A stretch of DNA of 64,000 nt from Daejeonella sp. JGW-45 (GTDB lineage Bacteria; Bacteroidota; Bacteroidia; Sphingobacteriales; Sphingobacteriaceae). Below are positions 11,032-62,182 of the stretch, piece by piece. The position numbers and the translations under genes were made by a program. The stretch's first letter is position 1; each line of letters opens with the position of its first letter. The notes beneath the pieces were generated by a model that saw nothing but the letters and a program-made list of their open reading frames with translations, was not told the origin of the DNA and made no database searches. The DNA lies in assembly GCF_029360805.1 (NCBI RefSeq), contig NZ_JARKNC010000002.1, positions 289,978 through 353,977 on the forward strand, given 5' to 3'.

Positions 11032-11042
11032 TATTTCTTTAT

Positions 11043-37518: not shown

Positions 37519-37535
37519 TGGTATCAGGAATCAGT

Positions 37536-37624
37536 AGTGTCCAGTTAAAATTAAACTACTACTCAAATGCGCTAACTATAACTTTAAAACAGGGGCTTTT
37601 ATTAATGTTTTTAAAGCAAGCCCC
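37536..37624. repeat. Insertion-element-like end
   Basis: Begins with AGTGTCCAGTTAAAA and ends ~86 bp later at GCAAGCCCC, with an internal 7-bp stem GGGGCTT/AAGCCCC. The same two boundary words occur at 38890 and 38973, 83 bp apart. It sits right after heptamers following the sulfatase stop codon. A solo or decayed transposon end is the simplest reading. Confidence 0.6.
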
Positions 37625-38145
37625 CTATTATCAAAATTATAGGATAAGCACAATGAGGTTCCAGCTTTCCCCGGATGCTACTGAATCAAGATTCGGGGGT
37701 AGGTGGTATTGAGAAATGACTTATTTCGGAAGTTAAAAAACGAATTAAACCCGCAAGAAAACCGCAAGATCTCATCGGCTTTTCATGGTACATGCTAAGC
37801 ACTGCTTAAGTACTGTCTAAGTACTGAGATAACACTAAGATAACACTGGGATAAAGCCCGCGTCTTTGTGCAGGTTTGAAAGCTTGGATTGGGGGTGTTT
37901 GCAGGAATATGCTTTCTGTTGAGAAGGTCGGATGAAACCTGAAACCAGAGTCGGAAGCCGGAGGTCTGAATTGGCAGGCCAAATGTCGAAGGCTGCGCTT
38001 GGACTAGCGGTTTAGACGCTGCAATTGGAGTGTGTCGTCTAAAGTCAGAAGCTGAATTATGATATCCGCAAATTATTTCGGTTAAAACTGAATATCACGC
38101 AGAATTTCTCCTTATTTATCTAAAATATTCATAATTAAGAGAATT

Positions 38146-38257
38146 CTTCATTACGAATTTCACAATTCGTTATTCACCGTCGTTGCGAATTTCATAATTG
38201 CGAGTTAACCGGCATTGCGAAATACGTAATTACGGGTTAACCGGCATTGAAAATATG
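38146..38257. repeat. 32-bp imperfect tandem repeat, about 3.4 copies
   Basis: Three units of exactly 32 bp (38146-38177, 38178-38209, 38210-38241) and a partial fourth. Units two and three end in GTTAAC and begin with CG-CG/TTGCGAA words; the first unit contains the inverted repeat ACGAATT/AATTCGT. The units adjoin without spacers, so this is not a CRISPR. Confidence 0.75.
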
Positions 38258-38883
38258 GTAAAAGTGCATTTTCATTGGAAATGAGGGCTTTTTTGAGTAT
38301 ATTATAATAGGAAATAAAGCACAAAATTGAAACTGAAAACTGAAGAATCATGGTGATCAAGGACCAGATTACTGAGATAGGATACGAGAGTATTTCTGGG
38401 AGTGAATGGAGAGTGAATGGAGAGTGAATAGATAGTGAATGAAATAGATTCGTCTCGAATGGGCGTTTTGAACGGTTTAGGTATAGGGCTTATATGCAGC
38501 CAGGCTCTGCTAAACCACGCCGGGGAGTATACATTCGATTTAGGCTGCCGTGATTTATTAAGGCCGTACTGGCGTATGGGTGTATTTTTTAACCATTAAA
38601 ATTTAAGTATAGAGAAAGGAAAGAATAATGAGAGATGAGCAGGAATTAGATTTCGGGCTCGTTTGGATGAAGGAGTAACCAGGCAAAGAAAGACCTGCCA
38701 CATGGTCAATAGCTTACTGTTGCTTTAAACACAAATACTGGTGCATTACAGTTATTGGGTTCGATTCCCCAATGGTGCCGTTAGTATGGTGAGTCCGCCC
38801 GGGCGGAAGTACACCGAACGCGAAACAGGCGGTAAGTATGAAGACTCTGCTAAAAGTTTTTTTAAGAGCTAAATATCAGGAAC

Positions 38884-39215
38884 CACTGTTGTCCGGTTAA
38901 ATTGGAATCTCTATAAAATATGTTTTTACGCCTTGCATCAGATGTTTTTTGCCGATTTTTAAAAGCAAGCCCCTCTATAAATACAAGTAGGCTTGACCCC
39001 GAAGGCGCCCGCCCGGATGAACACCGTTCGGACGGGGTCACATGTTTAATAGAAGAAATCATTCTAGCCCTTTCCGACCCCGGAGGTGGTCGTATGTGTT
39101 TGAAACTTCACATGCGACCACCTTCGGGGTCGATTTGTCGGAAATATCGATTACTATAAACATCCGACCGCCTTCGGGGGTCGAAAAGTAAAAATCTTTT
39201 AACCGGACACTAGTG
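38884..39215. mobile_element. 332-bp MITE-like element with terminal inverted repeats
   Basis: The left end CACTGTTGTCCGGTTAAA and the right end TTTAACCGGACACTAGTG are inverted repeats matching at 16 of 18 positions. No transposase is encoded inside. The interior carries a copy of the CCCGCCCGGATGAA hairpin (39006-39039) and a long hairpin at 39076-39131. It is probably non-autonomous, mobilised by a transposase elsewhere in the genome. Confidence 0.65.
39076..39131. repeat. Long hairpin of the GGTCG/GACCCC type
   Basis: A 23-base arm starting GACCCCGGAGGTGG pairs with its complement after a 10-base loop, 21 of 23 positions matching. A related half-copy (CCGACCGCCTTCGGGGGTCG) lies at ~39164-39183. 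Such palindromes are dispersed in intergenic DNA of many Bacteroidota. Confidence 0.75.
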
Positions 39216-39370
39216 TATCAAGAACCAAGAATCAAGACTTGAGGGTTGATGGCATTGATGATTGTCTTAAATATTCCGGCTGAGTCATTTGGAAGGGGCA
39301 CCAGCAAGGATTAGTATAACGCCAGGACCGCTCGGTGGAAGATAATACCCGGTTTTACCCGCGTATCTTA

Positions 39371-39409
39371 ATACCTGATACCTGATACCTGATACCTGAC
39401 CCCTGATAC
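39371..39409 (-). repeat. GTATCAG heptamer array after the ferritin-like gene
   Basis: On the minus strand, directly after the stop codon, the sequence reads GTATCAG, GGGTCAG, then GTATCAG repeated, in strict 7-bp steps. The same GTATCAG word follows the stop of the convergent sulfatase gene at 37520, on the other side of the island. Confidence 0.85.
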
Positions 39410-49013: not shown

Positions 49014-49048
49014 AAGGCCTTTTGATTCAAGCTCAAAAGGCCTTTTTT
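49014..49048. terminator. Bidirectional terminator at the end of the sulfur operon
   Basis: A perfect 12-bp stem AAGGCCTTTTGA / TCAAAAGGCCTT with a 7-base loop is followed by T on the plus strand and by A-derived T on the minus strand. It ends both the DinB gene and the 13-kb minus-strand operon, whose last stop codon is 1 bp away. Confidence 0.9.
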
Positions 49049-49049
49049 A

Positions 49050-50603
49050 TTAGGCGCGATCTGGATTGAGCAGAACCTGCCCATCGCGTTTGACGATCCA
49101 GGCGGTGATCGGGTTGTAATGATAGCCCCCTCCGGCGCCCCTGGCTTGCTGCAATTGCTTATAGGTCGGCTGAGTATAGCCTGTTTCGTCAATAGCACGG
49201 CTCACGATCAGGGTCTCCTCGCCATTCCATTGCCATAAGTAACGGAAACCGGTATGCGCCTTGTCGAGCACCGGTCCGCTGATATCGGCAAGCTTCCAGC
49301 TTTTGCCGGCGTCGGTACTGACCTCTACCGCCCTTATCTTGCCGCGCCCGCTCCAGGCAATTCCCCGGATCTCGATCCAGCCCTTTTCTACTTTAGCGGG
49401 ATATGCCGGGAAGGTTATGATCGAACGGGCGTCCATCGTAAAACTGAACTGGCGGTATTTGCCGTTAACAGGTTCGGTATACTTGGAGGTTTCCTCCCTG
49501 GTCATAAATGGCTGATCGCTGAGCTCTATCCTCCTTATCCATTTTACGGAGGTGTTCCCCTCCCATCCCGGGAGCAGCAGCCTCGCCGGATATCCTTGTT
49601 CCGGCCGTACTGCTTCACCATTCTGGGCATACACGATCATGGCATCGTCAAGGCCCTTGCTTAAAGGGATGCTCCGGGTCATTACTGCTGCGTCTGAACC
49701 TTCGGCAAGAAACCAGCTTGCTTTTTCTTTTACGCCCACCTCCCGGAGCAGCGTGGATAGCATGACCCCTGTCCATTCCGTCTGGCTGGTCAGACCGCAG
49801 ATCTCCTGCGGACTAAGAGTCTCCCGTCCTGTCCTGAAATTTCCTGAGCACTCCAGGAAACAGATCCGCGTTACTGAAGGAAAACGCTTGAGGTCGGCGA
49901 GCTTAAATATCATCGGCTTTTCCACCATCCCATGGATCAGCAGCTCATACTTATCCGGATCGATAGCAGGCACACCGGCGTGGTTACGCTCAAAGTGAAG
50001 GTCTGAAGGGGTGATGGTACCGTAAAGATCTTGCAGCGGAGTTCGCGAAGATGTGCCAGACGGCAGCTTAAATAACTTTTCGTGCGGTGAGCGGGTTCCC
50101 AACTTACCGGGCGGCGGGCCAAGCTTCTTAGTCGGGTCGTCGTATAACTCGCGTTCGGGCACAGCTGCCTGGAAGGCTTTTCCGGCAGATGTTTGTACAA
50201 GGACGACCACTGCTGTCGCCATACCGGCGAGAAGGGTTCTGCGTGATATTTTAGAGCCATTGGGTGCGGGAAGCGAGATACCCGATTCCTGCGGGGTATC
50301 AAATTCAAACAGCGGGATCTGAGTTTTCTTTAGTCGGGTTCCACTTTTTTGCTGTGATGTTGCAGCTATTTCCCCGCCTGCACCTTTTTGCTGCAATGTT
50401 GTAACTATTTGCTGCACGCTTGCATCTTTTTGCTGCAACGTTGTAGCTATTTGCTCCGCACTTGCATCTTTTTGCTGCAACGTTGTAACTATTTGCTCCG
50501 CTTTTGCATCTTTCTGCTGCAACGTTGTAGTTATTTGCTCCGCGCTTGCACCTTTTTGCTGCAACGCTCTGGCCTTTTGCTTCTCCTCGCTTTTAAATTT
50601 CAT
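49050..50603 (-). CDS. soxC: SoxC/SorA-type molybdenum sulfite dehydrogenase with N-terminal repeats
   Basis: Oxidises sulfite to sulfate in the periplasm, passing electrons to a cytochrome c. 517 residues. The molybdopterin domain has CFLECSGNFRTG with the probable Mo ligand Cys252, then LLPGWEGNTSVKWIRRIEL and the dimerisation domain with IRGIAWSGRGKIRAVEVSTD. The Tat signal SRRTLLAG lies at ~120-127, far inside the protein, preceded by five 13-14-residue repeats around QQKDASAEQI. A later start cannot be excluded but no ATG follows the repeats before the Tat motif. The cytochrome gene lies 18 bp upstream, as in SorAB/SoxCD pairs. SoxC versus SorA naming is uncertain. Confidence 0.86.
   Translation of the reverse strand: MKFKSEEKQKARALQQKGASAEQITTTLQQKDAKAEQIVTTLQQKDASAEQIATTLQQKDASVQQIVTTLQQKGAGGEIAATSQQKSGTRLKKTQIPLFEFDTPQESGISLPAPNGSKISRRTLLAGMATAVVVLVQTSAGKAFQAAVPERELYDDPTKKLGPPPGKLGTRSPHEKLFKLPSGTSSRTPLQDLYGTITPSDLHFERNHAGVPAIDPDKYELLIHGMVEKPMIFKLADLKRFPSVTRICFLECSGNFRTGRETLSPQEICGLTSQTEWTGVMLSTLLREVGVKEKASWFLAEGSDAAVMTRSIPLSKGLDDAMIVYAQNGEAVRPEQGYPARLLLPGWEGNTSVKWIRRIELSDQPFMTREETSKYTEPVNGKYRQFSFTMDARSIITFPAYPAKVEKGWIEIRGIAWSGRGKIRAVEVSTDAGKSWKLADISGPVLDKAHTGFRYLWQWNGEETLIVSRAIDETGYTQPTYKQLQQARGAGGGYHYNPITAWIVKRDGQVLLNPDRA
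50355..50561 (-). repeat. 42-bp coding tandem repeat in the sulfite dehydrogenase gene
   Basis: Five units, the last one codon shorter, encode QQKxAxxEQIxTTL-like 14-mers at residues ~15-83. The DNA copies are near identical in steps of 42 bp. The peptide has the look of a helical, Gln/Lys-rich stalk. Confidence 0.9.
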
Positions 50604-50621
50604 GATACTACAGCTTAATAT

Positions 50622-51266
50622 TTACCGGATAACTGCTCCGCCAGTCCGGTCATCAGGTACAAACATTTTCTCTGCCGGCATCTTCACCCTGGGCAGTGTT
50701 TTGGCGTTCATTACCGCATCGGCGGGAATGATCTTATTCGCATATAAAAGATAAGCTGTGAGACTGTAGACTTCGTCGGGGCTTAATGATCCGGGCGCAT
50801 TGTAAGGCATCGCACGGTTAATATAATCGTACACAGTTGATGCATAAGGCCAGTAATTGCCTATTGTTTTTACCCGGGCACCGGAAAGCGAATCGGTAAT
50901 AAGTGCCGGCCCCGGGCTCTCAGCAGCGGAGGCCCGCCCGCGGGACGACTTCCCGGTATGGCATACCAGGCATTTAGCAAGATAGATCGCCTGCCCCTGC
51001 TTTACTGTTCCGGCTCCGGGGGGTAAACCCTGGCCATCCGGACGCACATCAATATCGAGGCTGTCGATATATTTCTGGCCGGCACTGCGGCCCAGGCCGA
51101 AGCTGCCGGGCCAGCGGACCTTCTTTTTAATGGTATCCTGTGGGCTTAAACTATTAAATATATTCCTGGAAAACTGCTGGTCTTTCCCTGAAAACCCCTG
51201 CAAAATGAACACAGCGGTGATAATAGCCGGGAATATCCCGTACTTCAATCTGGATCTGTATGACAT
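50622..51266 (-). CDS. Monohaem c-type cytochrome, sulfite dehydrogenase partner
   Basis: 214-residue exported electron carrier. A signal-like hydrophobic stretch at ~10-25 precedes the mature part. The single haem motif is CLVCH (Cys99, Cys102, His103), and Met153 in RAMPYNAPGSLSPDEVYSL is the likely distal ligand; this last segment is typical of SoxD-like cytochromes. It lies 18 bp upstream of the sulfite dehydrogenase gene and 5 bp downstream of the YeiH-like gene. Confidence 0.9.
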   Translation of the reverse strand: MSYRSRLKYGIFPAIITAVFILQGFSGKDQQFSRNIFNSLSPQDTIKKKVRWPGSFGLGRSAGQKYIDSLDIDVRPDGQGLPPGAGTVKQGQAIYLAKCLVCHTGKSSRGRASAAESPGPALITDSLSGARVKTIGNYWPYASTVYDYINRAMPYNAPGSLSPDEVYSLTAYLLYANKIIPADAVMNAKTLPRVKMPAEKMFVPDDRTGGAVIR

Positions 51267-51271
51267 ATGAG

Positions 51272-52528
51272 CTAGTTAAATAATAAAAGTGCAACTATCA
51301 GGGTAACTACCACGTTAAAGCCTTGCGCGACAAGAAAAGCATAAAAAGGCTTTTTGCTCTGCTTATTAAAGAGGTCGGCAAAATTGGTTTCCAGACCGAT
51401 GCTCGTAAAAGCCAGTGCGAACCATAGTCCCTGCAGATTCTTCAGACTACCCTTAACTGCACCAGTAGTCTCAGAATCCAAGACAAAGGAAAACAGCAGC
51501 GACGCTCCAACGAAACCGAGAACGAATTTTGGGAACCTGTCCCATATTACACCGAGCGTAGGCTTGGTGTCCGGGTCTTTGGCATTATCATGTTTGGTAT
51601 AGGTCCAGAACACTGAGATCGCGAAAGCTGCAAGTCCCAGAAGCACGTTCTGCGAGAATTTAACGATCGTACTGATCTTAAGAGCCTCCTCCCCAACCAG
51701 AGAACCGGAAGCTACGACCGCACCGGTAGTGTCAATACTTCCCCCAAGCCAGGCGCCGGTCACTTCCTGCGACAGCCCGAGGGCATTGGCGATCATCGGC
51801 ATGAAGACCATCATCGGGATCGCCGTGATCAGCACCATAGATATCACATAAGAGAGCTTTTTTGAATCGCCTTTTATTGCACCGGAAGTGGCTATCGCCG
51901 CCGAAACGCCGCAAATGGAAACGGCACTGGAGATCATCATCGTCAGCTCATCGTCGATCTTTAGCTTTTTACACAGCCAGTAGGCAAAATACCAGACGGA
52001 AACTACTACAACAAGTGCCTGGATAAGACCCAGGGAGCCAGCTTTCAGAATATCCGTGAATATCACGCCGGTACCCAGGAGCACCAGCCCGATCTTCACA
52101 AAGAGTTCCGTTGAAAGAGACGATTTCAGCCATTCAGGCAGCTTAAAGAAATTACTGATGATCAGTCCGAGACCGAGACTGAAAATTACCGCTTCAAGGT
52201 TTATAGCCTTTACCTGGTCATTACCGGCCAATACCAGGGCAAACATTGTAATGATGTAAACAATGGGAAATCCAAGCAGGTAATTCTTAAGCGGCTTGCC
52301 GGTGAGCAGCGCGCCAATCAACGCGATCACCAGGACAAAGAGGAACTGCGTCGCGATAATGCCCAGGTTCGCGGGTTCCAAAACTGTCTGGCTAAGTTCG
52401 GAAGCGTTGCTCCAACTGAACGCCGGCACCGGTAGTATTAGTCCGCCGATAGAGACCGCAATGATCAGGGCTCCGAGAATGACGACCACCCAATCTTCGT
52501 GGAGGGCAAATTTGTTATTTTCTGACAT
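51272..52528 (-). CDS. YeiH-family (UPF0324) putative sulfate exporter
   Basis: 418-residue inner-membrane protein with about eleven hydrophobic segments. Family motifs are SLGLGLIISN near residue 115, GLVLLGTGVIFTD near 145, SAVSICGVSAAIATSGAIKG near 205 and GGSIDTTGAVVASG near 255 (given in part). Members are annotated as putative sulfate exporters, often near sulfur-oxidising or taurine-degrading genes. Here it sits 2 bp after the flavoprotein gene and 5 bp before the cytochrome, which fits removal of sulfate produced by the pathway. Confidence 0.85.
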   Translation of the reverse strand: MSENNKFALHEDWVVVILGALIIAVSIGGLILPVPAFSWSNASELSQTVLEPANLGIIATQFLFVLVIALIGALLTGKPLKNYLLGFPIVYIITMFALVLAGNDQVKAINLEAVIFSLGLGLIISNFFKLPEWLKSSLSTELFVKIGLVLLGTGVIFTDILKAGSLGLIQALVVVVSVWYFAYWLCKKLKIDDELTMMISSAVSICGVSAAIATSGAIKGDSKKLSYVISMVLITAIPMMVFMPMIANALGLSQEVTGAWLGGSIDTTGAVVASGSLVGEEALKISTIVKFSQNVLLGLAAFAISVFWTYTKHDNAKDPDTKPTLGVIWDRFPKFVLGFVGASLLFSFVLDSETTGAVKGSLKNLQGLWFALAFTSIGLETNFADLFNKQSKKPFYAFLVAQGFNVVVTLIVALLLFN

Positions 52529-52530
52529 AG

Positions 52531-53967
52531 TTATAGGGAAATATTAATATTAAAAACGTCTTTAAGTGTTTGTCTGGCTGCGTAGTATCCGCACATGCCA
52601 TGCACGCCCCCACCCGGCGGGGTCGATGCCGAGCAGATGTAAATGCCTTTTGCAGAAGTACGGTAAGGTGAGCTTCTTAACACCGGCCGTGTAAATAGCT
52701 GGCCGATGTCAATGATGCCTCCATTAATATCCCCGCCGATATAGTTGGGGTTATAAGCCTGGACCTCCCGGGTGTTCATGGTATGCTTTGCCAGGATAAG
52801 ATCTTTGAAGCCCGGCGCGAAACGCTCTACCTGCGACTCTATCGCTGCGGTCATATCCGTTTCCGAGCCGTTCGGCACATGGCAGTAAGCCCAAGCCGTT
52901 TGTTTTCCTTCGGGTACACGGCTGCTGTCAAACAGGCTTTGCTGTGCGAGGAGTACGAACGGCCTTCCCGGATGCCCGCCGCCCGCAGCGAGCTTTTCGC
53001 CGGCGGCAATCTCTTCGAAGGTATTGCCCAGATGTATCGTCCCGGCTTTCCGCGCTTCTGCGGAGGTGAACGGAATCGGACCGGATAAGGCCCAGTCGAT
53101 CTTGAATACGCCCATGCCATAACGGTAACGGCTGAGCTGCCATTTATAAACCGGTGAAAAATGGTCGCCTGCTATCTCCAGGATCTGTTTCGGACTAAGA
53201 TCGAAGAGAACTGCTTTCGCGGATGGGATATCTCTCATCACGCGGATATGAACGCCGGTTTGGATCTTCCCGCCAAGGCTGAGGAAATATGAAGCAAGGG
53301 CATTGGCGATCTCCTTGGAGCCGCCCCTTGGCAAGGGCCAGCCGTGAAGGTGGCCCGCAGCCATTAACACGAGACCGATAGCCGAGGTAGCGAGGTTCGT
53401 AAGCGGCTGAATCGAATGCGCTGTCATACCCGCCCACAGCCCCCGGGCTTCCCTGGTAGCGAACTTACCGGCCAGCGACGACGCCGGCCTTAAAGCATTG
53501 AGGCCGAAAGCAGCCAGGTCCAGTGGGTGCTTCGGGTAATGCAGCGGACCGAGTACATCTGCCGCCAACCCGGGCCAGCTCTTCACCAGCGGCGCCAGAA
53601 GGTCTTTATAAGCTCTGGCGTCTGCACCCAGGCCTTCTGCTGTTTCGTCGAGCGACTTCCTGAGCACCGCGGCAGATCCATCGTCGAAAGGGTGAGCAGC
53701 CAGTACTTCCGGGTAAATATATTCCAGTCCGTGCTGGGCGAGAGGCAGGGTGTTGAAGAAAGGAGATCCTGCGGCCAGGGGATGAATAGCGGAGCATACA
53801 TCATGAATATAACCCGGCAGAGTAAGTTCGGCCGAACGCAAACCGCCCCCAATAGTATCTTTAGCTTCGATAAGCAGGACCGACAAGCCGGCCTGCCGCA
53901 AAGCAATTGCCGCCGACAAGCCGTTGGGGCCGGCCCCTATTACTACCGCATCACATTCTGTATTCAC
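52531..53967 (-). CDS. FAD-dependent phytoene-desaturase-like oxidoreductase
   Basis: 478 residues. The N-terminal dinucleotide-binding motif VVIGAGPNGLSAA is followed by EAKDTIGGGLRSAEL; the C-terminal FAD segment is GIYICSASTPPGGGVHGMCG. It belongs to the CrtI/PYROXD2-like amine-oxidase superfamily; the substrate is unknown and need not be a carotenoid, since no carotenoid genes are near. The start is a GTG at 53967, supported by a Shine-Dalgarno AAAGGAG six bases upstream, rare in this organism group. It is in the middle of the sulfur operon. Confidence 0.85.
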   Translation of the reverse strand: MNTECDAVVIGAGPNGLSAAIALRQAGLSVLLIEAKDTIGGGLRSAELTLPGYIHDVCSAIHPLAAGSPFFNTLPLAQHGLEYIYPEVLAAHPFDDGSAAVLRKSLDETAEGLGADARAYKDLLAPLVKSWPGLAADVLGPLHYPKHPLDLAAFGLNALRPASSLAGKFATREARGLWAGMTAHSIQPLTNLATSAIGLVLMAAGHLHGWPLPRGGSKEIANALASYFLSLGGKIQTGVHIRVMRDIPSAKAVLFDLSPKQILEIAGDHFSPVYKWQLSRYRYGMGVFKIDWALSGPIPFTSAEARKAGTIHLGNTFEEIAAGEKLAAGGGHPGRPFVLLAQQSLFDSSRVPEGKQTAWAYCHVPNGSETDMTAAIESQVERFAPGFKDLILAKHTMNTREVQAYNPNYIGGDINGGIIDIGQLFTRPVLRSSPYRTSAKGIYICSASTPPGGGVHGMCGYYAARQTLKDVFNINISL

Positions 53968-54027
53968 GTGGTTCTCCTTTAAGCTTGAATATCATAAAAT
54001 CTATTTAATTAAACATAAATATTCTGG

Positions 54028-55950
54028 TTAATTATACTTACCGGCGCTCAATGTACTCTCCGACAGGTTGTATCTCTTGTTGATCCTGTCCAATACTACA
54101 TAGATGGAATCGCGGTTCTCGTCGAGCCCCTTCAGTATCACTCTTGAGCCGTCTTTAGTACTGTAGTTCAATATCATCTTGCTTCGTCCTATATCCCGTG
54201 CAGGCCTTGCGAATTCACGGTCGCGGCGGGTGGAATACGCCCGCGGGTCGATCATCCGGTTCTCGTCACCGATGTTCTTCCAGGCTGCAGGACTTATCCA
54301 GCTTTCCGGATATCTGCGGGGGTCGCTTTTCGCTGTTGCCGCACCGGCCGTTTCCCGGCCGCGGCCTCTTCTCATAGCCGCTACAGCATTCTTATCCTGC
54401 AGGTAAAGCACGTTTTCAATCGTATCCGCGTAGTAATGAAAAGCCCGTTGTCCGCCGGCAGTACCCGCTATTTCGAAGGTCCGCTGAATATCGCGCATTG
54501 GGCTGCCTCCCCCGTTTGAAGGGTCTATCGTTACCGGCTTGTTGACCTTAAAGGTCAGGGTGGTCCAGTTTTCGAAGGTAGCCTGCTGCCAGCGGATGCT
54601 GTCGACGGGAGAGTAAGGAATGATCGAGTCGTTAAGCCTGAACTCCGTGACTGCATAGTTGCCGCGCAATTGCTTTACACCGGCGGTAGACGGCTGCTTA
54701 TATGGATCGTATTTAAAATTGATCACTTCGGTATAGGTGAGTATCCCAAAGAAAATGATGAATACGAGCAATTTAAGCCCGATGCGCGTGTATCCCAGCC
54801 AATTGCGGGTAAAATAAGGGTAGTAGCTATTGGGTACCGTATATTGCTGCCGGATAAGGAGATTGTAAAGTCTTGGTACATCATCTACGAGCAGGAATGC
54901 TCCTAACAGAACGAAATAGAAGGCATAGACATGTACCCCGCCGTCATAGGCATAATTTACGAAAGTAATGTCTCCCAAAGCTCCGATCAGCAGGATCGCC
55001 CCGTAAGTAGTCGTTTTACGGAACAGCAGCAAGCCTCCTGCGAGAAGCTCAACCACTCCGCCGAAGACCTGGTACCAGGGAACAATACCTACGGACAGCC
55101 AGTAGATCTTCTGAGCGGTGAAGTCGCCAAAGTCTGTGTTCAGCAGGCCCAATGAGGGGTATGGCATCTGAGTTGGGAATAGCTTGGTGTATCCAAAACC
55201 GATTATTCCTATTGCCGCGCGGTATCGCACGATAACTTTAAGCCAGTAATACAGCACGTTATACTCTTGTCTCTTCCGGTCAAAGGCTGTCCATATCAGG
55301 CCGGCGATTGTTGCTATGAGGAGAGCAAGGCCCCAATCGGCATAATCGGCGAGGAAGCTCCTTTTTGGAGGGGTTTGAACTGCGGGCTGCGAGTTCCGGT
55401 TTTTTTGCACCGGCTCAGAAGAACTGGCAGGATTGAGTCGCGATGCAGAAACCTGTTGAGTTTCGTTACCAGAATGGTCTCTTGCGGAAACCACTCCGTC
55501 TTCCGGTGAGGATAACTTGGTTCTATGCCCCCTGCCGCTGTCGGGCAAATTACTTTCGTTTTTCAACTGCGCTCCGTCAACTTTCTTTCTCCTTTCGCTT
55601 GCGTCTTTAACTCCTTCGCCCCTCACAGGTGTTCTTTCTCCCCGTGCACCCTCCGGTGCAATTCCTTCATCACCTCCTCCGCCTCTCGACAAGCCCATGA
55701 AACTCCTCACACTCGGGCTGAACCGCGCGATGTCGTAGATATCCCTGTAATGTGGATTGAGCCAGTCTATGCTGGCCAGATTTCGGTACCATCCGCCGCT
55801 GAGCGGGATCGACATAAGTATAAAGAATCCAAATGCTATGCGGAAAAGAACCTTTTGATAGCCCTTCCAGGATGCAGGCGGTACGACCCTTTTCTTATCA
55901 GCGATACTAAGCGTATGCCCGGGAGCTGATGTATGTTTTTTATCTGACAT
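54028..55950 (-). CDS. DoxX-like membrane protein, long paralogue with low-complexity insert
   Basis: 640-residue membrane protein. A first helix (~35-55) is followed by a hydrophilic linker at ~88-198 and then a DoxX-like four-helix core (~205-370), with VIVRYRAAIGIIGFGYTKLFP and GGVVELLAGGLLLFRKTTT in part. The C-terminal ~200 residues are a soluble domain with strands, ending in LNYSTKDGSRVILKGLDENRDSIYVVL (in part). The paralogue next door has the same order without the linker. DoxX relatives include the small subunit of thiosulfate:quinone oxidoreductase, so an electron-transfer or sulfur role is plausible in this operon, but it is inference. Confidence 0.78.
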   Translation of the reverse strand: MSDKKHTSAPGHTLSIADKKRVVPPASWKGYQKVLFRIAFGFFILMSIPLSGGWYRNLASIDWLNPHYRDIYDIARFSPSVRSFMGLSRGGGGDEGIAPEGARGERTPVRGEGVKDASERRKKVDGAQLKNESNLPDSGRGHRTKLSSPEDGVVSARDHSGNETQQVSASRLNPASSSEPVQKNRNSQPAVQTPPKRSFLADYADWGLALLIATIAGLIWTAFDRKRQEYNVLYYWLKVIVRYRAAIGIIGFGYTKLFPTQMPYPSLGLLNTDFGDFTAQKIYWLSVGIVPWYQVFGGVVELLAGGLLLFRKTTTYGAILLIGALGDITFVNYAYDGGVHVYAFYFVLLGAFLLVDDVPRLYNLLIRQQYTVPNSYYPYFTRNWLGYTRIGLKLLVFIIFFGILTYTEVINFKYDPYKQPSTAGVKQLRGNYAVTEFRLNDSIIPYSPVDSIRWQQATFENWTTLTFKVNKPVTIDPSNGGGSPMRDIQRTFEIAGTAGGQRAFHYYADTIENVLYLQDKNAVAAMRRGRGRETAGAATAKSDPRRYPESWISPAAWKNIGDENRMIDPRAYSTRRDREFARPARDIGRSKMILNYSTKDGSRVILKGLDENRDSIYVVLDRINKRYNLSESTLSAGKYN

Positions 55951-55976
55951 GATATTAGATTTGGTTTCCTTATGAT

Positions 55977-57311
55977 CTAGAGTTTCAAGCTGCCGAGCCG
56001 GCCCAGCTTGACGGGATATTTCTTATGGATCTTATTGAGCACAGCGTATACGGAGTCTTTATTCTCATTAAGTCCGCGGAGAATAATAGTAGAGCTGTCA
56101 GGCTTGGTATATTGCAGGGTCAAAGTTTCATCCGGGTAGTTCTTGTTTTTATTTTCAAGTCGCAGGACATTACCCGGGGTGTCTGCCTTATACGAGTAAT
56201 AATGCCTGCCGCCCGAACCGGCAAGCTCGTAGTTGCGGTCCTTATCGTTCCGGGAGATCTTTTCTGCATTAGTCGAATCGAGTATTACGAGACGGTTGGA
56301 CCGGATGCTGATGGTCGCCCATTTCTCAAAAACCACATCCTTCCACCGGGTAGGATCTGTGAGAGAATAAGGGATAACCTTATTATTGATCCTGAACTCG
56401 GAAACATTATAGATGCCGCTGGCTCCGGGTATTCCTTTGCTTACGGGAAACTGGTAGGGATCGGTTTTATAATCTGAATAGGTCGCATATCCGTATAGGA
56501 AAACAAAGAAGAAAATGACAAAGCCCTTAAGAGCCAGGCGGACGTTCTTCAGTTTACCGGGAAATTCCGGTTTGAACGTATCGGGAGATGTAGGGCGTTC
56601 GAGAGAGACGAGGTTATAGATCCGCTGAGCATCATGGGCCAGTACAAATAAAGCGAGTACGATGAGGTAAAAACTGTAAACATACTCACCGCCTTCATAG
56701 GCCAGGTTCGACATGAACACATTCCCGGTGAATACAAGGATGAGCAATGCTCCCACGCTGGCTGTCTTCCTGAAGAATAATAGCAGCCCGGCGAGGATTT
56801 CCACTCCTCCAAGGAAGGACTCATACCCAGGGACGATCCCCAGGCTAAGTGAGAATATTTTCCATGCGTGGAAGTCGCCGTAGTTTGTGTTCAGGTTACT
56901 GATCGAAGGGAATGGCGCTTGTGCCGGGAAGAATTTGATCATCCCGTAGCCTATGATCCCGATAGCGAGCCGGTAACGCACGATCACGCGCAGCCAGTAA
57001 TATAAGGTATTGTAGTCTGTGTTTTGAGGATCTCTTTTTGTCCATACAAACGCCCCGACGGCGGCAATAATGACGAGCAGGAACCAGTCAGCAAAGGTTT
57101 CTGCGCCGGAGAAGAATCGCGGGAAATAGCGGCTAATAGTGAAAATATCTCCGTAATAGAGATCTGCCCAATTTATAGAGAACAGATCGCGATAGAATTT
57201 CCAGTCGAGCGGAACAGCCTGCAGCACCAGGTAAATAAAGATGAACCTGAAGAAAGCCTTCTGTGTGTCTGTCCATGGACCAGGGTTCGGATTAGTAAAA
57301 GTCGTAGCCAT
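55977..57311 (-). CDS. DoxX-like membrane protein, short paralogue
   Basis: 444 residues and clearly homologous to the downstream 640-residue protein: VIVRYRLAIGIIGYGMIKFFP and GGVEILAGLLLFFRKTASV (in part) align with its core, and the C-terminal domain matches around LRGLNENKDSVYAVL. It has a helix near residue 20, a helix near 80 and the four-helix DoxX-like core, then a soluble domain of ~180 residues that I do not recognise. It starts 51 bp after the susD stop and precedes the long paralogue by 26 bp. Function unknown. Confidence 0.78.
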   Translation of the reverse strand: MATTFTNPNPGPWTDTQKAFFRFIFIYLVLQAVPLDWKFYRDLFSINWADLYYGDIFTISRYFPRFFSGAETFADWFLLVIIAAVGAFVWTKRDPQNTDYNTLYYWLRVIVRYRLAIGIIGYGMIKFFPAQAPFPSISNLNTNYGDFHAWKIFSLSLGIVPGYESFLGGVEILAGLLLFFRKTASVGALLILVFTGNVFMSNLAYEGGEYVYSFYLIVLALFVLAHDAQRIYNLVSLERPTSPDTFKPEFPGKLKNVRLALKGFVIFFFVFLYGYATYSDYKTDPYQFPVSKGIPGASGIYNVSEFRINNKVIPYSLTDPTRWKDVVFEKWATISIRSNRLVILDSTNAEKISRNDKDRNYELAGSGGRHYYSYKADTPGNVLRLENKNKNYPDETLTLQYTKPDSSTIILRGLNENKDSVYAVLNKIHKKYPVKLGRLGSLKL

Positions 57312-57362
57312 AACGATAGGTTTTTAACAGGGCCGGCTTATACCGGCCCTGGTGTAAATAGA

Positions 57363-58706
57363 TTAGTATCCGGGATTTTGAACCAAAGCTTTATCCGCCT
57401 GGATCTGATCGATCGGGATTGGCATCAGCAGGCGGTTGGGATCAGTTACATTTAATACTGCTGCCGCCCTTCCTGTGCGCACCAGGTCGAACCAGCGGTG
57501 GGCCTCAAATGCAAACTCAAACCGGCGCTCATTCTCAATGGCCAGCAGGATATCTGCTTGCGTAAGTGCTGGTGTGGCCTCCAATGCGGAGCGGTTCCTT
57601 ACGGCATCAAGGTCTGCCCGCGCAGCTGCAAGCTTAGCTCCGCCCTGCTGTGCCCGTGCTTCTGCCCTGATGAGATATAGCTCGGCGATGCGGATTACGT
57701 AGGTGGGATCGGTTGCCGGGCTTCTGTAGTAAAGGTTACCGAACCAGCGATTCTGGTTGTCTTTTGCTACGAGGGCGCTGCGTGTTCCGCCAATTGCCGG
57801 GTTGTTAACAAGGGCAACGAAGGCATCATTTGGAGCCCATTGCCGGGTGCCGCCGTTAGACTGGGGCTGCCACTGCCCGCGGTGCCCGTTCGTTTCATTG
57901 CTGCTGTAGTAGAATTCGAAAACGGATTCTTTTGTTCCTCTTTTACTTTCAGGGAAGAAAAAGGAGTTGTAAGGCGCAAGCAACTCGTAGTTGGCAACAT
58001 CCGCGATCACCTTGTCGGCGAACTCCTCAGCTTTCGCCCAATCTTTCTGGTACAGGTAGAACCTTGATTTTAAAGCCCAAACGGTTTTCCGCGTTGCGCG
58101 ATATCTGTCCGTGCTAAGCGGAAGTAAGGGCTCAGCCAGGTCAAGATCGGCCAAAGCTTGAGCATATACCTGTGCCTGGGTACTTTTAGCAACACCCCGG
58201 TTATCTGTTGCGGCAAGCGTGGGTTTAGTGATTATCGGTGCGCCGCCCCAGGTCCTGGCGAGGTCGAAATAGGCAAGGGCCCGGATAAAATAGGCTTCCC
58301 CGGTGATCTGGTTCTTCAGGGCCCCTGTAAGAAGGGGATCTGTAAGGGCCGGAACTTTGGCTATTATGTGGTTTGCACGGTTTACAGCACTGTATATCCC
58401 ATTCCACACCCCGCCAATGGTAGAGTTCTCCGGGTTTACCTTGTGGTTTATAAATTCCTGAACCTGCGATTGAGAGCCTGTCCATTGCACGTTGTCGCCC
58501 GAAAGGTAGGCGATCGACTGGAAGCTTGTTCCGTAATAGCCACGTGAGGCTTCGTATACCGCCCTGATTGCAGTTTCGGCAGAGCCCTTGTCTACAATGG
58601 TCTGCTGGTCTGAGATCGATGATCGCGGCTCTACCTCTAATATCCCTTCGCAGGAAGCAAACACGACGAGGATCAGGAATGCGCTTATATATTTTAATGT
58701 CTTCAT
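57363..58706 (-). CDS. SusD/RagB-family lipoprotein of the sulfur operon
   Basis: 447-residue surface lipoprotein, SPII signal ending at FASC (Cys19). Typical segments: GEAYFIRALAYFDLARTWGG near residue 130 (in part), RIAELYLIRAEARAQ near 345, and RRFEFAFEAHRWFDLVRTG near 400 (in part), ending in PIPIDQIQADKALVQNPGY. It follows SusC by 26 bp and precedes the DoxX-like gene by 51 bp with no terminator, so import and oxidation genes appear to be one transcript. Confidence 0.95.
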   Translation of the reverse strand: MKTLKYISAFLILVVFASCEGILEVEPRSSISDQQTIVDKGSAETAIRAVYEASRGYYGTSFQSIAYLSGDNVQWTGSQSQVQEFINHKVNPENSTIGGVWNGIYSAVNRANHIIAKVPALTDPLLTGALKNQITGEAYFIRALAYFDLARTWGGAPIITKPTLAATDNRGVAKSTQAQVYAQALADLDLAEPLLPLSTDRYRATRKTVWALKSRFYLYQKDWAKAEEFADKVIADVANYELLAPYNSFFFPESKRGTKESVFEFYYSSNETNGHRGQWQPQSNGGTRQWAPNDAFVALVNNPAIGGTRSALVAKDNQNRWFGNLYYRSPATDPTYVIRIAELYLIRAEARAQQGGAKLAAARADLDAVRNRSALEATPALTQADILLAIENERRFEFAFEAHRWFDLVRTGRAAAVLNVTDPNRLLMPIPIDQIQADKALVQNPGY

Positions 58707-58732
58707 GTCTTTATTTTTTTTATTGCCGTATA

Positions 58733-61700
58733 TCAGAGAACTACATTTACCCCGAACTGTATGCCCCGAGGCTGCGGAGGCGTACCCAAGTCAATTCCCT
58801 GCTCATTCTGCGAGCTGCTGGCTGCAGATTCGGGATCCAGGCCGGTGTAATTGGTAATAGTGAACAGGTTGGTCCCCACCACGAACAGGCGGACATTTTC
58901 GATCCTTACCTTATGGGTCAACGACTTCGGCAGCGTATAGCCAATGTTGAGCGATCTCAATTTCAGGAAGGACCCATCCTCCAGCCAGCGGCTTCCTCCA
59001 TCCCGGTAGTTATTGATATTGATCCCGTCAGGTTTCGGTATATTGGTGATGTCGCCTGGCTTTTGCCACCTGGCGTTGTTGCTCGCAAAGATTATGCGCG
59101 CCGCATCACGGGCTCCCCCGCCCTCACCAAAAAAGCGATTGTGATTATATATTTTATTGCCCGACTGGAACGCCAGGAAGACCGATACATCGAAGCCCTT
59201 GTAGGTAAGATTATTGGTTAAGCCCCCGAAGAATTTAGGCCATATACTCCCATTGATCCGCCTGTCGTCCACAGTGATCCTCCCGTCATTATTATAGTCC
59301 TGGTATACAGAATTCCCGGTCTGCGGATCGACATACAGTTCATTATATACCCAAAATGAATAAAGCGGACTACCCTGCTGCTGCAGGATCAGGTCGCGGC
59401 TGCCATATTTTAGTGGCGTTTCGAGCTTGTCTATATTGTTTACGTTCCTCGAAATGTTCAGGCTTGTGCTCCATGTAAAGTGGCTCTTCCTGATGTTGAC
59501 GGAGTTGATATTGAACTCAAAGCCTTTGTTGCTGATCTCAGCAGCGTTGCTCATATAACTCGCAAAGCCCGTGGTTGCCGGTAAGGTTAAGCGCAGCAAT
59601 CCGTTCACGGTCTGCTTGTGATAAGCGTTAAATTCAAGGTTGAGGCGCTCGTTGAAGAGGGAAATATCGACCCCGGCATTATACTGGTTGGTCCGCTCCC
59701 ATTTCAGGTCGGGATTTGCCAGCTGCTGCGGAGCGATTCCGGGACTGTCCTGGTAAGAACTGCCGCCGCTCCATAGGCCCAATGAAGCGAAGCTGCCGAT
59801 ACCATTCTGGTTACCGGTAACTCCATAGCTTCCTTTAAGCTTCAGATCGCTGATAAAAGCCACGTCCTTTAGGAAGTTCTCACCCTTTATCCTCCAGGCC
59901 CCGCCGACAGACGGGAAATATCCCCAGCGGTTATTTGATCCGAAGCGCGAGGATGCATCCGCTCTCAGGCTAGCCTCCAGCAGGTATTTGCCGGAAAAGT
60001 TATAATCGATCCTGGAAAAGAAGGATACTAAGGTAGCTTTGTTCCAGCTTTGTGACCCCGTTGTAACGGCTGCTGAGGAGATCTGCTTAAATGAGTTATT
60101 GGCAAAACCACGGCCTGTGCTCGAGGTACCTTCTGAGATATCGGCCTGGAGTGTGTTCCCCACCAGCACACCGAAACCATGGCGGCCCAGAGTTTTGCGG
60201 TAGTTAAGAGTCTGCTCATTCAGCAAAGAGGTAGATTGGCCCACGGAGGACGTTGCGAGGCCATTAGGGCTTCCGGAGATGAGAAAGGTATTCCAGTACT
60301 CTGATTCGTCGTAATTATTGTAGTCGACGCCCACTGTACTTCGGAAAACCAGGTTCGGCAGCAGGTTGGCCTGTGCGTATAGACTCCCTATATAGCGCAG
60401 GCTTGTTGAATGCACATCATAGTATTTCAAAAGCAGGTCAACATTGTCGAATCCGGCGCGGCCAACAGGTATACCCAGTTCATTGACCGGCGACAAATAG
60501 GTCGGCGTATGCAACGCAGCCTGAAGCAGTCCCCCTGCAGGCCCATCACCCGCCCGGGCTTGGTTGCGGCCTGTCCGGGCAAAAGTATTGCTTACGCCGA
60601 CCTGGATCTTTTCATTGATCTTTTGATCCAGATTTACTTTAAAGCTCCCGCGGTTAAATGTAATCGGCTTTAGGATGGATTCCTGATCGTTATAACCGGC
60701 AGCGATGTAGTACTTGGTCGTTGCCGTACCGCCGCTTAAGGACAGATCGTAATTCTGCATACCTGCAGTCTGGAATACCTGACCCAGGCGGTCGTACGTC
60801 TGCTGCTCGGAAGGGCGGCCGCGGCCGCCGGCAGAAACCGGACGAAATGGGACTGTCGATGCAGGGTTCCCCGTATTCACCCACCATTCGTTTACCAATG
60901 TTGCGTGCTCCGGACCTGTAGTTAATTCCCATAGCTTTTCAGCTTTAGACCATCCCTGGGACGCGTTGAAGCTTATCTTGGATTTCTGGTTGTAATTTCC
61001 CCGCTTGGTAGTGATCAGGATCACGCCATTCGCACCGCGCGATCCGTAAAGGGCGGTTGCATTTGCGTCTTTAAGCACTTCAACGCTTTCTATATCCGCA
61101 GGATTGATATCTGCTATCGGGGAAGATGCCTTACCTCCTGTGCTGATAGTTTGAAGGCTGTTGGTATTTATAAAAACACCATCTACAACATACAGGGGAT
61201 CGTTATCTGCGTTGATGGACGTCGCTCCCCTAACGCGGATGTTCACAGTTTCGCCCGGCACACCCGTATTAGATGATATCTGTACTCCCGGAACCTTACC
61301 CTGCAGCTGTGAATCGAAACTACCTGTCGGGATATCTTTGGTTTCTGCCGGGTTTACTTTAGTGATTGATCCTACCAGGTTTTTACGTTCCTGGGTACCA
61401 TAGCCCACCACGATGATCTCGCCCAGCTGGTTGATAGATTCCTCTAGTGAAACTTCTACCGGGCTTCCGTCGACAACCACTTCCTTTGTCTTATAGCCGA
61501 TATAGCTAACTATGATGGTATACGGGAACTTCTGCCCCGTAACGAAATTGAATTCTCCTTCACTGTCGGTGAACGCCTTATGGGTAGTGCCCTGCAGTTG
61601 GACGATAGCTCCCGGAAGTGTGGTTTTGGTCCTGCCGTCTATGACCGTGCCACGGAGAGTGGAATTGATCAAAGGTACTGTTGGTGTCTGCGCAGAAACA

Positions 61701-61801
61701 AATGAAGGAATAAATAATATTAATAGCCCCAGACCTAATGGAATCAGGTATCCGGAGAAAACCAGGTTGTGTAAAGACCTGATCTTTGCATTTTTTTGCA
61801 T
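58733..61801 (-). CDS. SusC/RagA-family TonB-linked transporter of the sulfur operon
   Basis: 1022-residue outer-membrane transporter. The signal peptide ends near FVSAQTP; a CarboxypepD_reg-like domain follows (~45-125; GTVIDGRTKTTLPGAIV), then plug with IIVVGYGTQERKN near 135 and LYGSRGANGVILITTK near 250, then the barrel ending ...FGVNVVL. The ATG at 61801 begins just before the signal peptide; one at 61843 would add 14 polar residues. A strong promoter lies ~344 bp upstream, so the mRNA has a long leader. Confidence 0.95.
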   Translation of the reverse strand: MQKNAKIRSLHNLVFSGYLIPLGLGLLILFIPSFVSAQTPTVPLINSTLRGTVIDGRTKTTLPGAIVQLQGTTHKAFTDSEGEFNFVTGQKFPYTIIVSYIGYKTKEVVVDGSPVEVSLEESINQLGEIIVVGYGTQERKNLVGSITKVNPAETKDIPTGSFDSQLQGKVPGVQISSNTGVPGETVNIRVRGATSINADNDPLYVVDGVFINTNSLQTISTGGKASSPIADINPADIESVEVLKDANATALYGSRGANGVILITTKRGNYNQKSKISFNASQGWSKAEKLWELTTGPEHATLVNEWWVNTGNPASTVPFRPVSAGGRGRPSEQQTYDRLGQVFQTAGMQNYDLSLSGGTATTKYYIAAGYNDQESILKPITFNRGSFKVNLDQKINEKIQVGVSNTFARTGRNQARAGDGPAGGLLQAALHTPTYLSPVNELGIPVGRAGFDNVDLLLKYYDVHSTSLRYIGSLYAQANLLPNLVFRSTVGVDYNNYDESEYWNTFLISGSPNGLATSSVGQSTSLLNEQTLNYRKTLGRHGFGVLVGNTLQADISEGTSSTGRGFANNSFKQISSAAVTTGSQSWNKATLVSFFSRIDYNFSGKYLLEASLRADASSRFGSNNRWGYFPSVGGAWRIKGENFLKDVAFISDLKLKGSYGVTGNQNGIGSFASLGLWSGGSSYQDSPGIAPQQLANPDLKWERTNQYNAGVDISLFNERLNLEFNAYHKQTVNGLLRLTLPATTGFASYMSNAAEISNKGFEFNINSVNIRKSHFTWSTSLNISRNVNNIDKLETPLKYGSRDLILQQQGSPLYSFWVYNELYVDPQTGNSVYQDYNNDGRITVDDRRINGSIWPKFFGGLTNNLTYKGFDVSVFLAFQSGNKIYNHNRFFGEGGGARDAARIIFASNNARWQKPGDITNIPKPDGININNYRDGGSRWLEDGSFLKLRSLNIGYTLPKSLTHKVRIENVRLFVVGTNLFTITNYTGLDPESAASSSQNEQGIDLGTPPQPRGIQFGVNVVL

Positions 61802-62151
61802 ACTTTTACTATAAGGTTTATGATAGATCGAAGCAGGTGGCAAGTCGCATTGAGGCCTGTTTCTTTTGATTTAAATCCCGGGGAAATGCTCTTAGCATTT
61901 CCCTTTTTTATTTAGTGCTGGCGTAGAATTATCTTTGATCCCCCTCCTTTCGAATAATATATGCTTATTAATGGTTTGTCTTTCGCCCAGGGCTTACTTC
62001 CTGCGCAACTGCAGAATGCTGCAATGAATAGTTAACAGCAATACATGCAACAATAGCTGGTAAAGTTTTTTACCGTTCTGGTTTGGATAAACGTACTTGC
62101 GTTCTTTTGTAAAGCCATTGTTTTAAACAGGTAACCTTAACGATTACGACA
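61802..62151 (-). other. Long untranslated leader of the susC operon with hairpin
   Basis: About 344 bases lie between the predicted transcription start (~62145) and the susC ATG. The only clear structure is a perfect 10-bp stem, GGGAAATGCT / AGCATTTCCC with a 3-base loop at 61881-61903, followed on the plus strand by TTTTTTA, which looks like a plus-strand terminator. In the minus-strand leader the same stem is preceded by an A tract. Confidence 0.55.
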
Positions 62152-62182
62152 CAAATATAGAAGGAAGATTTAATAATACAAA
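62152..62182 (-). promoter_or_regulatory. Strong Bacteroidota promoter of the sulfur operon
   Basis: On the minus strand TTTG (62182-62179), a 19-bp spacer and TATATTTG (62159-62152) match the primary-sigma consensus exactly. It is the only full match in the region and drives susC and the genes behind it. Confidence 0.85.

Follow-up and report, generated by a model that had tools for sequence, protein, structure and literature searches.

We analysed a 64,000-nucleotide stretch of the Daejeonella sp. JGW-45 genome (contig NZ_JARKNC010000002.1, positions 289,978 to 353,977; hereafter the window, in whose coordinates positions are given). On its minus strand, from 61801 to 49050, lie eight open reading frames (ORFs) that join a SusC–SusD outer-membrane import pair to two membrane proteins here called DoxA and DoxB, a flavin adenine dinucleotide (FAD)-dependent oxidoreductase, a YeiH-type transporter, a cytochrome c and a SoxC-type sulfite dehydrogenase. 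This combination of SusCD, sulfur genes and a sulfite-oxidising enzyme is a hint that these bacteria use sulfur-containing compounds in a way not yet described. We put at about even the chance that this operon represents one version of a locus, conserved in Bacteroidota, for sulfur-compound utilisation, in which SusCD would serve import, YeiH would export sulfite and SoxC would oxidise it in the periplasm. The eight genes are, from susC to soxC:

58733–61801, minus strand: susC, TonB-dependent outer-membrane transporter (TIGR04056, 809.9 bits, cut-off 368.25)
57363–58706, minus strand: susD, surface lipoprotein partner (PF14322 and PF07980, over the Pfam cut-offs)
55977–57311, minus strand: DoxA, membrane helices and a C-terminal lipocalin-like beta barrel (predicted model, pLDDT 92.6)
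54028–55950, minus strand: DoxB, DoxA paralogue with a low-complexity insert (alignment A1)
52531–53967, minus strand: FAD-dependent oxidoreductase, CrtO/CrtI-like (PF13450, PF01266; CrtO, 109 of 1000 bits)
51272–52528, minus strand: yeiH-type inner-membrane transporter (PF03601, 179 bits, cut-off 24.5)
50622–51266, minus strand: cytC, mono-haem cytochrome c, SoxD-like (one CxxCH)
49050–50603, minus strand: soxC, molybdenum sulfite dehydrogenase with a Tat-type (twin-arginine) signal (TIGR04555, 479.1 bits, cut-off 420)

The eight-gene array is real. All eight ORFs named in a preliminary description of this DNA were recovered, separated by gaps of 26, 51, 26, 60, 2, 5 and 18 bp, in keeping with the 2–60 bp it had given. 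Internal terminators or promoters splitting SusCD from the enzymes, which it had named beforehand as counting against its reading, were absent from the gaps: a scan of the window placed no minus-strand promoter-like or terminator-like site between any two of the eight genes, although it did place such sites within them (promoter-like at 60450, 59707 and 51248; terminator-like at 56535, 56226 and 52034). The short gaps, with no such sites in them, are compatible with a single transcription unit. The family calls of the preliminary description stood for SusC, SusD, YeiH (PF03601), the cytochrome c and SoxC, all of which pass their cut-offs, whereas the label 'DoxX-like' passes none.

SoxC is patchily distributed, occurring in 29 of 201 genomes of the window's family (E up to 1e-40) and in 3 of 395 genomes of a phylum sample (1e-60), the window's own genome counted in both. 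At 24 of the 28 other soxC loci of the family, susC, susD, DoxA, DoxB, cytC and soxC all lie within 20 kb, and across the same 28 the FAD gene is present at 23 and yeiH at 20. Among the misses, one locus (L035; such labels denote individual loci) has soxC and cytC alone, its DoxAB genes standing on another contig with susD, peptidase S51, FAD and yeiH genes (L199); L048 and L051 hold only a DoxB fragment, upstream; and in L059 soxC is cut and no Dox gene is present. One further locus, L034 (G037:C27), carries MoaA, MoeA, MoaE, MoaC, ThiF/MoeB-type and molybdate-type binding genes between DoxB and cytC.

A scan with the DoxA/DoxB alignment widened the comparison, the named loci being the best 80 of 251. 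These 80 span Sphingobacteriia, Chitinophagia and Cytophagia, in genera that include Pedobacter, Mucilaginibacter, Chitinophaga, Niastella, Dyadobacter, Larkinella, Spirosoma, Hymenobacter and Runella, and many cassette-bearing Bacteroidota come from soil and plants; Pedobacter jeongneungensis and Mucilaginibacter roseus are among the carriers. Taking as a run co-directional genes with gaps of up to 300 bp, we found SusCD in the runs of 71 of the 80, soxC in 57 and both in 55, with FAD in 48, yeiH in 32 and peptidase S51 in 22; contig ends cut some of the loci scored as lacking SusCD, L092 has no called Dox ORF although tblastn finds Dox there, and in L060, L062 and L065 the cytC–soxC genes are divergent from susC. 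Nine of the 28 family loci also figure, as identical records, among the 80, and so do three of the 19 loci without soxC treated below. Gene order in related genomes, the comparison that the preliminary description had proposed, thus shows the linkage of SusCD with soxC to be conserved, in the family's soxC loci as in the DoxAB loci; a lack of such linkage, which it had named as refuting its reading, is not what these genomes show. Two different genomes (L058 and L073) have identical stretches in common.

The SusC proteins of these cassettes also group together. In a FastTree phylogeny of 152 SusC leaves, the smallest clade that holds all 109 cassette leaves (99 distinct sequences) has 116 leaves and a local support of 0.999; its seven extra leaves are cassettes of unusual order or with missed ORFs (L036, L092, L108) and SusCs adjoining a cassette (L088, L099, L106, L107). 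Outside it fall all 20 control SusCs and 15 of the 19 labelled 'other'. The controls were 20 other SusC loci of 18–20 kb each from nine cassette-bearing genomes, the window's own included, and are not a random sample, since they were hand-picked among the strongest SusC matches; SusCs are common, with at least 36 or 37 matches in each control genome. Relatives of DoxA, DoxB, soxC, cytC, FAD, yeiH and S51 were each found at none of these 20 loci, and the same was true of TauE and rhodanese relatives; sulfatase relatives were present at two, FGE at one and MFS at one. SusCs accompanied by S51 form no separate clade in this tree. Several side observations concern the same proteins. In L088, L099, L106 and L107 the adjoining SusC is a second one of the same clade just upstream of the main cassette, followed in L088, L099 and L106 by an S51 ORF; the S51 protein of L121 reaches 119.5 bits with the cyanophycinase model, against a cut-off of 126.6; and the window has a second SusD–SusC pair (9640–14030, minus strand), whose SusC is labelled 'other' and lies outside the cassette clade.

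The loci that lack soxC show one SusCD–DoxAB core carrying differing putative sulfur genes. We chose by hand, among the DoxAB matches listed, 19 loci with no soxC in the stretch (the genomes of L198 and L199 carry it elsewhere), in which FAD is present at 16, yeiH at 12, an SDR epimerase at seven and S51 at four. On this core, L181 and L184 carry a CDO (cysteine-dioxygenase, thiol-dioxygenase)-like protein and a four-domain rhodanese; L193, L194 and L196 an MBL–rhodanese fusion; L191 and L192 a TauE-type exporter; and L189 and L190 a sulfatase with FGE, one member of each type being assigned by Pfam and the rest by identity. The window's own genome encodes, unlinked to the operon, an MBL–rhodanese protein of the same cluster as those of the sister loci. 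It also has a second sulfur island (L180, G000:C2:512000-531900) with MBL–rhodanese, two SoxB-like proteins (316 and 275 bits, under the TIGR04486 cut-off of 550), a SoxA/TsdA-type cytochrome, DsrE, Sulf_transp (YeeE-type), TauE and a rhodanese-like protein.

The two genes at the distal end of the operon find their best PDB matches in one structure: SoxC in 2xts chain A, at 357.7 profile bits against 127.8 for the next hit, and the cytochrome in chain B, at 151.6 bits against 39.1. The second cytochrome domain of a sox-cluster SoxD is missing from the window cytochrome, which is therefore not a di-haem SoxD. SoxY was found in none of 31 genomes (one only 68% complete) by a search that finds it on a Paracoccus sox-cluster plasmid at 1.3e-31, and none of the 31 has a SoxB over the TIGR04486 cut-off, the best of the window's own genome being the 316-bit protein of L180. 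With one haem, and with SoxY in 0 of 31 genomes, SoxC and its cytochrome are, judged by sequence, a stand-alone pair and not a Sox system. Window SoxC is 58.3% identical to the stand-alone SoxC of Paracoccus pPAN2 and 52.1% to that of Methylobacterium, versus 46.3% to the SoxC of the Paracoccus sox-cluster plasmid. The four stand-alone pairs examined are all on plasmids, and two adjoin organosulfur-type genes. The Methylobacterium pair lies beside flavin monooxygenases and sulfonate transport genes; on Spirosoma oryzicola plasmid NZ_CP089541.1 (L250), a SusCD pair heads an amidohydrolase, a luciferase-like monooxygenase, an amino acid permease, cytC and soxC, this SusC being 28.7% identical to that of the window and not of the cassette clade type.

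Window SoxC does not reach the NCBIfam cut-offs for SorA (127.0 of 600 bits) or SorT (127.5 of 570). Its C252 (the Mo ligand), R206 and H208 are invariant in 15 aligned SoxCs (alignment A2) and align with the SorA cysteine and with what we take to be SorA Arg55 and His57, while the residue we take to be the catalytic SorA Tyr236 sits in a stretch that cannot be aligned with SoxC. Window Tyr325 was considered as the sulfite-oxidase tyrosine and rejected, because the mutant chain 2c9x departs from 2blf at another place, outside the part that can be aligned with SoxC; position 325 is Tyr in the stand-alone SoxCs L250, L251 and L254 and Phe in the sox-cluster SoxC L253 and in 2xts, a difference that separates few sequences and has no known meaning. 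The twin-arginine signal of SoxC and the signal sequence of the cytochrome were recognised by eye; of the 15 SoxCs, L054 and L056 have no twin arginine, starting with a hydrophobic stretch instead.

The middle of the operon is less readily assigned. The preliminary description had tied the two Dox proteins, through DoxX, to thiosulfate:quinone oxidoreductase, and Pfam does not support this assignment: none of 24 DoxA/DoxB members reaches a Pfam cut-off (MauE 0.0075, 11 of 24; DoxX 0.061, 6 of 24; DoxX_2 1.9, 1 of 24), DoxD is not among the Pfam matches listed for them, and PF07680, the DoxA subunit of that enzyme, has no match in the window's own genome in a search that does match in Bacteroides ihuae. 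One study reports that DoxX proteins have been wrongly annotated as DoxD and that trees were needed to separate DoxD from DoxX, and SoxB from 5′-nucleotidases (PMC6704655). No cysteine stands among the invariant or nearly invariant columns of alignments A1 or A4, which argues against a thiol–disulfide mechanism. In structural comparison the barrel of the DoxA model is of lipocalin type (Z up to 8.8). Modelled alone (pLDDT 87.4), the helical part best matches NACHO/TMEM35A, presumably a DoxX-like protein, at the tool's stated noise level (Z 7.6, 111 residues, root-mean-square deviation 2.9); vitamin K-dependent carboxylase recurs weakly in these comparisons, and a Foldseek search, whether with whole DoxA or with the helical part, found nothing at 0.001 or better. 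The insert of window DoxB, about 100 residues, is reduced or absent in the remaining DoxBs of A1. No solved relative of the FAD protein was found at 1e-10. YeiH scores 89.6 of the 232.6 bits of the narrower TIGR00698 cut-off; in Salmonella, yeiH is described as the main determinant of sulfite resistance, its mechanism still being open (PMC12880088).

From the observed gene content, conservation, linkage and family membership we infer the following route. SusCD would bind a sulfur-containing compound at the cell surface and import it via TonB. The compound would then be processed at or inside the inner membrane, its sulfur ending as sulfite, with DoxA, DoxB and the FAD protein as possible players and, in the sister loci, the thiol-dioxygenase-like, rhodanese or MBL–rhodanese proteins taking part in this step. 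Because SoxC bears a Tat signal and the cytochrome a signal sequence, oxidation should be periplasmic; with YeiH in the inner membrane, it is therefore more plausible that YeiH moves toxic sulfite out to the periplasm before oxidation than that sulfate is pumped out, as the preliminary description had it. The SoxC-type molybdoenzyme would oxidise the periplasmic sulfite to sulfate, and electrons would pass from SoxC to the mono-haem cytochrome c and on to the respiratory chain. In favour of this route we also count the molybdenum-cofactor genes inside the L034 operon, the two stand-alone pairs beside organosulfur-type genes, the sulfite resistance that yeiH gives Salmonella and the unlinked MBL–rhodanese protein of the window's own genome. 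The earlier idea that this SusCD system is dedicated to a sulfur compound agrees with the conserved linkage, with a SusC clade of its own and with sulfur genes that are exchanged between loci; it stays inferential in that the window holds no recognised sulfite-releasing enzyme. A broader proposal, which we advance only tentatively and at rather less than even confidence, is that the distinct SusC clade marks organosulfur utilisation loci, in which a core of SusC, SusD and two DoxX–lipocalin proteins carries exchangeable sulfur-releasing and sulfite-oxidising modules and the DoxX–lipocalin pair is a new membrane sulfur redox or transfer protein.

Several results weigh against utilisation of a sulfur compound as the purpose of the operon. 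SoxC is missing from the run in 22 of the 79 named loci with a called Dox pair, and DoxAB relatives, many of them distant single proteins, occur in 90 of the 201 family genomes at 1e-20 versus only 29 for SoxC, so sulfite oxidation is an add-on and not the core. At two of the 19 soxC-less loci (L182, L198) the searches turned up no yeiH and none of the other sulfur genes; the CDO match of L181 is marginal (23.2 bits, cut-off 23), and no relative of that protein was found in the window's own genome, in a search without a positive control. No desulfurising enzyme is recognised among the window genes either, and around two of the stand-alone SoxC pairs, both from Paracoccus, the 7 kb on either side contain no sulfur gene. 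The contrast with the control loci is partly circular for the sulfur genes from outside the window, because those queries were derived from the case loci, unlike the soxC, Dox, FAD and yeiH queries. Lastly, peptidase S51 in the 22 runs could mean a peptide substrate. In one alternative SusCD imports an ordinary nutrient, such as a peptide or a sulfated glycan, and YeiH and SoxCD merely clear by-product sulfite. The optional place of SoxCD and YeiH on the SusCD–DoxAB core would suit such a detoxifying role, as would S51 after SusD in many loci and the sulfatase with FGE in two sister loci. Sulfatases, however, yield sulfate rather than sulfite; several unrelated sulfur genes sit on the same core; and soxC, yeiH, TauE and rhodanese relatives are absent from all 20 other SusC loci (sulfatase being present at two of these and FGE at one). 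We regard this alternative as unlikely, though by no means far-fetched.

Oxidation of inorganic sulfur would place thiosulfate or persulfide at the start, DoxAB doing the work of a thiosulfate:quinone oxidoreductase while SoxCD attacks sulfane sulfur. The rhodanese genes of the sister loci fit this, as does the second sulfur island with its SoxB-like, SoxA/TsdA-like, DsrE, Sulf_transp and rhodanese genes, but the SoxB-like matches there fall well under their cut-off, SoxY was absent from all 31 genomes in a search with a working control, PF07680 was not found in the genome and DoxX stays under its cut-off. Thiosulfate, moreover, is small and should not require SusCD. On balance this seems improbable. 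Most improbable in our estimation is a molybdoenzyme acting on something other than sulfite, in a locus that is not about sulfur: SorA Tyr236 has no aligned counterpart in SoxC, yet the protein passes the SoxC equivalog model TIGR04555 and has conserved both the Mo-ligand cysteine and the residues equivalent to SorA Arg55 and His57, and other sulfur genes occur on the same core.

Some further features of the operon lie in its leader, at its two ends and at the start of soxC:

62152–62182, minus strand: promoter-like TTTG-N19-TATATTTG, an exact pattern match upstream of susC
61880–61904, no strand assigned: inverted repeat with 10-bp perfect arms in the susC leader (hairpin scan)
50346–50566, minus strand: 42-bp tandem repeat coding for an N-terminal extension of SoxC (TRF, 5.3 copies)
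49014–49044, minus strand: terminator-like hairpin directly past the soxC stop

TTTG-N19-TATATTTG, which we take to be the Bacteroidetes promoter consensus, has three matches in the window against 1.16 expected, a number reached in 9 of 100 shuffles, and one of the three falls within susC (61702–61670), so the match alone is weak; terminator-like hairpins are likewise not above chance overall (19 found, mean 16.2). The consensus promoter and the terminator of the preliminary description are well placed, the former as an exact match, and each is no more than a consensus match. The start of susC is likely ATG 61801 rather than TTG 61843. The susC leader (61799–61912) is 80.7% identical over 114 bp to the L181 leader, yet the SusC proteins are only 56% alike; Rfam gave no match over cut-off in the window, nor, at E values as high as 1, any in the leader. 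We rejected the leader hairpin as a mark of the cassette, being not clearly commoner than at other SusCs: arms of at least 9 bp occur in 23 of 109 cassette leaders and 6 of 39 'other' and control leaders, and best hairpins of −10 kcal/mol or lower in 34 of 108 cassette and 11 of 34 comparison leaders. The repeat-coded extension of SoxC precedes the Tat signal and was not seen in the other 14 SoxCs of A2; elsewhere in the same genome (L002), a weakly similar stretch contains stop codons. Away from the operon, 37519–39409 is a 1.9-kb stretch with no ORF of 100 residues, no tRNA and no Rfam family over cut-off.

If the proposed function is right, a sulfur-tied SusC clade would mean that many loci, in Pedobacter, Mucilaginibacter, Chitinophaga and Dyadobacter among others, have to be annotated differently, and would suggest a route that returns organic sulfur to sulfate, with a defined gene set (SusCD, DoxAB, SoxCD, YeiH) available in culturable strains for testing substrate and function. 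SusCD systems are mostly read as importers of glycans or peptides; SusCD-led utilisation loci are known as polysaccharide utilisation loci (PULs), and RagAB and NanOU are other named systems of SusCD type. The kind of locus is thus known, while in the open-licence PMC literature, most of whose matches were judged on the openings of abstracts, we found no SusCD locus with SoxC or DoxX and hence no such sulfur variant. As in PULs, a TonB-linked SusC and a lipoprotein SusD head an operon of other genes; SusC is accompanied, as a SusC/RagA-type receptor should be, by an adjacent SusD lipoprotein, whose best solved chain is 6gcz_A (121 bits). The difference is that none of the Pfam and NCBIfam matches of the eight window proteins is to a carbohydrate-active enzyme, the partners of SusCD being sulfur and redox genes, and if the proposal holds, organosulfur utilisation loci would be the sulfur counterpart of PULs.

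The other known systems each resemble one part of the operon. Paracoccus SoxCD (2xts) supplies the best matches for SoxC and its cytochrome, but SoxCD of the Sox system differs in the second haem domain of its SoxD and in the company of SoxY. SorAB and SorT share molybdenum sulfite oxidation with a cytochrome c partner, whereas window SoxC, at about 127 bits against 600 and 570, belongs to another subfamily. With the thiosulfate:quinone oxidoreductase DoxDA, DoxA and DoxB possibly share a DoxX-type helical core, the differences being the added lipocalin-like barrel of DoxA, the Pfam cut-offs not reached and the genome without a PF07680 match. The nearest physiological parallel is the breakdown of organic thiols (mercaptosuccinate; dithiodipropionic acid, DTDP) in Variovorax and Advenella. 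These are Proteobacteria, for which the available part of the source names no SusCD and places the exporter and sulfite oxidation apart from the dioxygenase genes; yet it describes there a thiol dioxygenase gene adjoining a rhodanese gene, sulfite handling by a molybdopterin oxidoreductase or by Sox proteins, an exporter of the PSE family and, in the DTDP cluster, a DoxX-family gene (PMC5373536).

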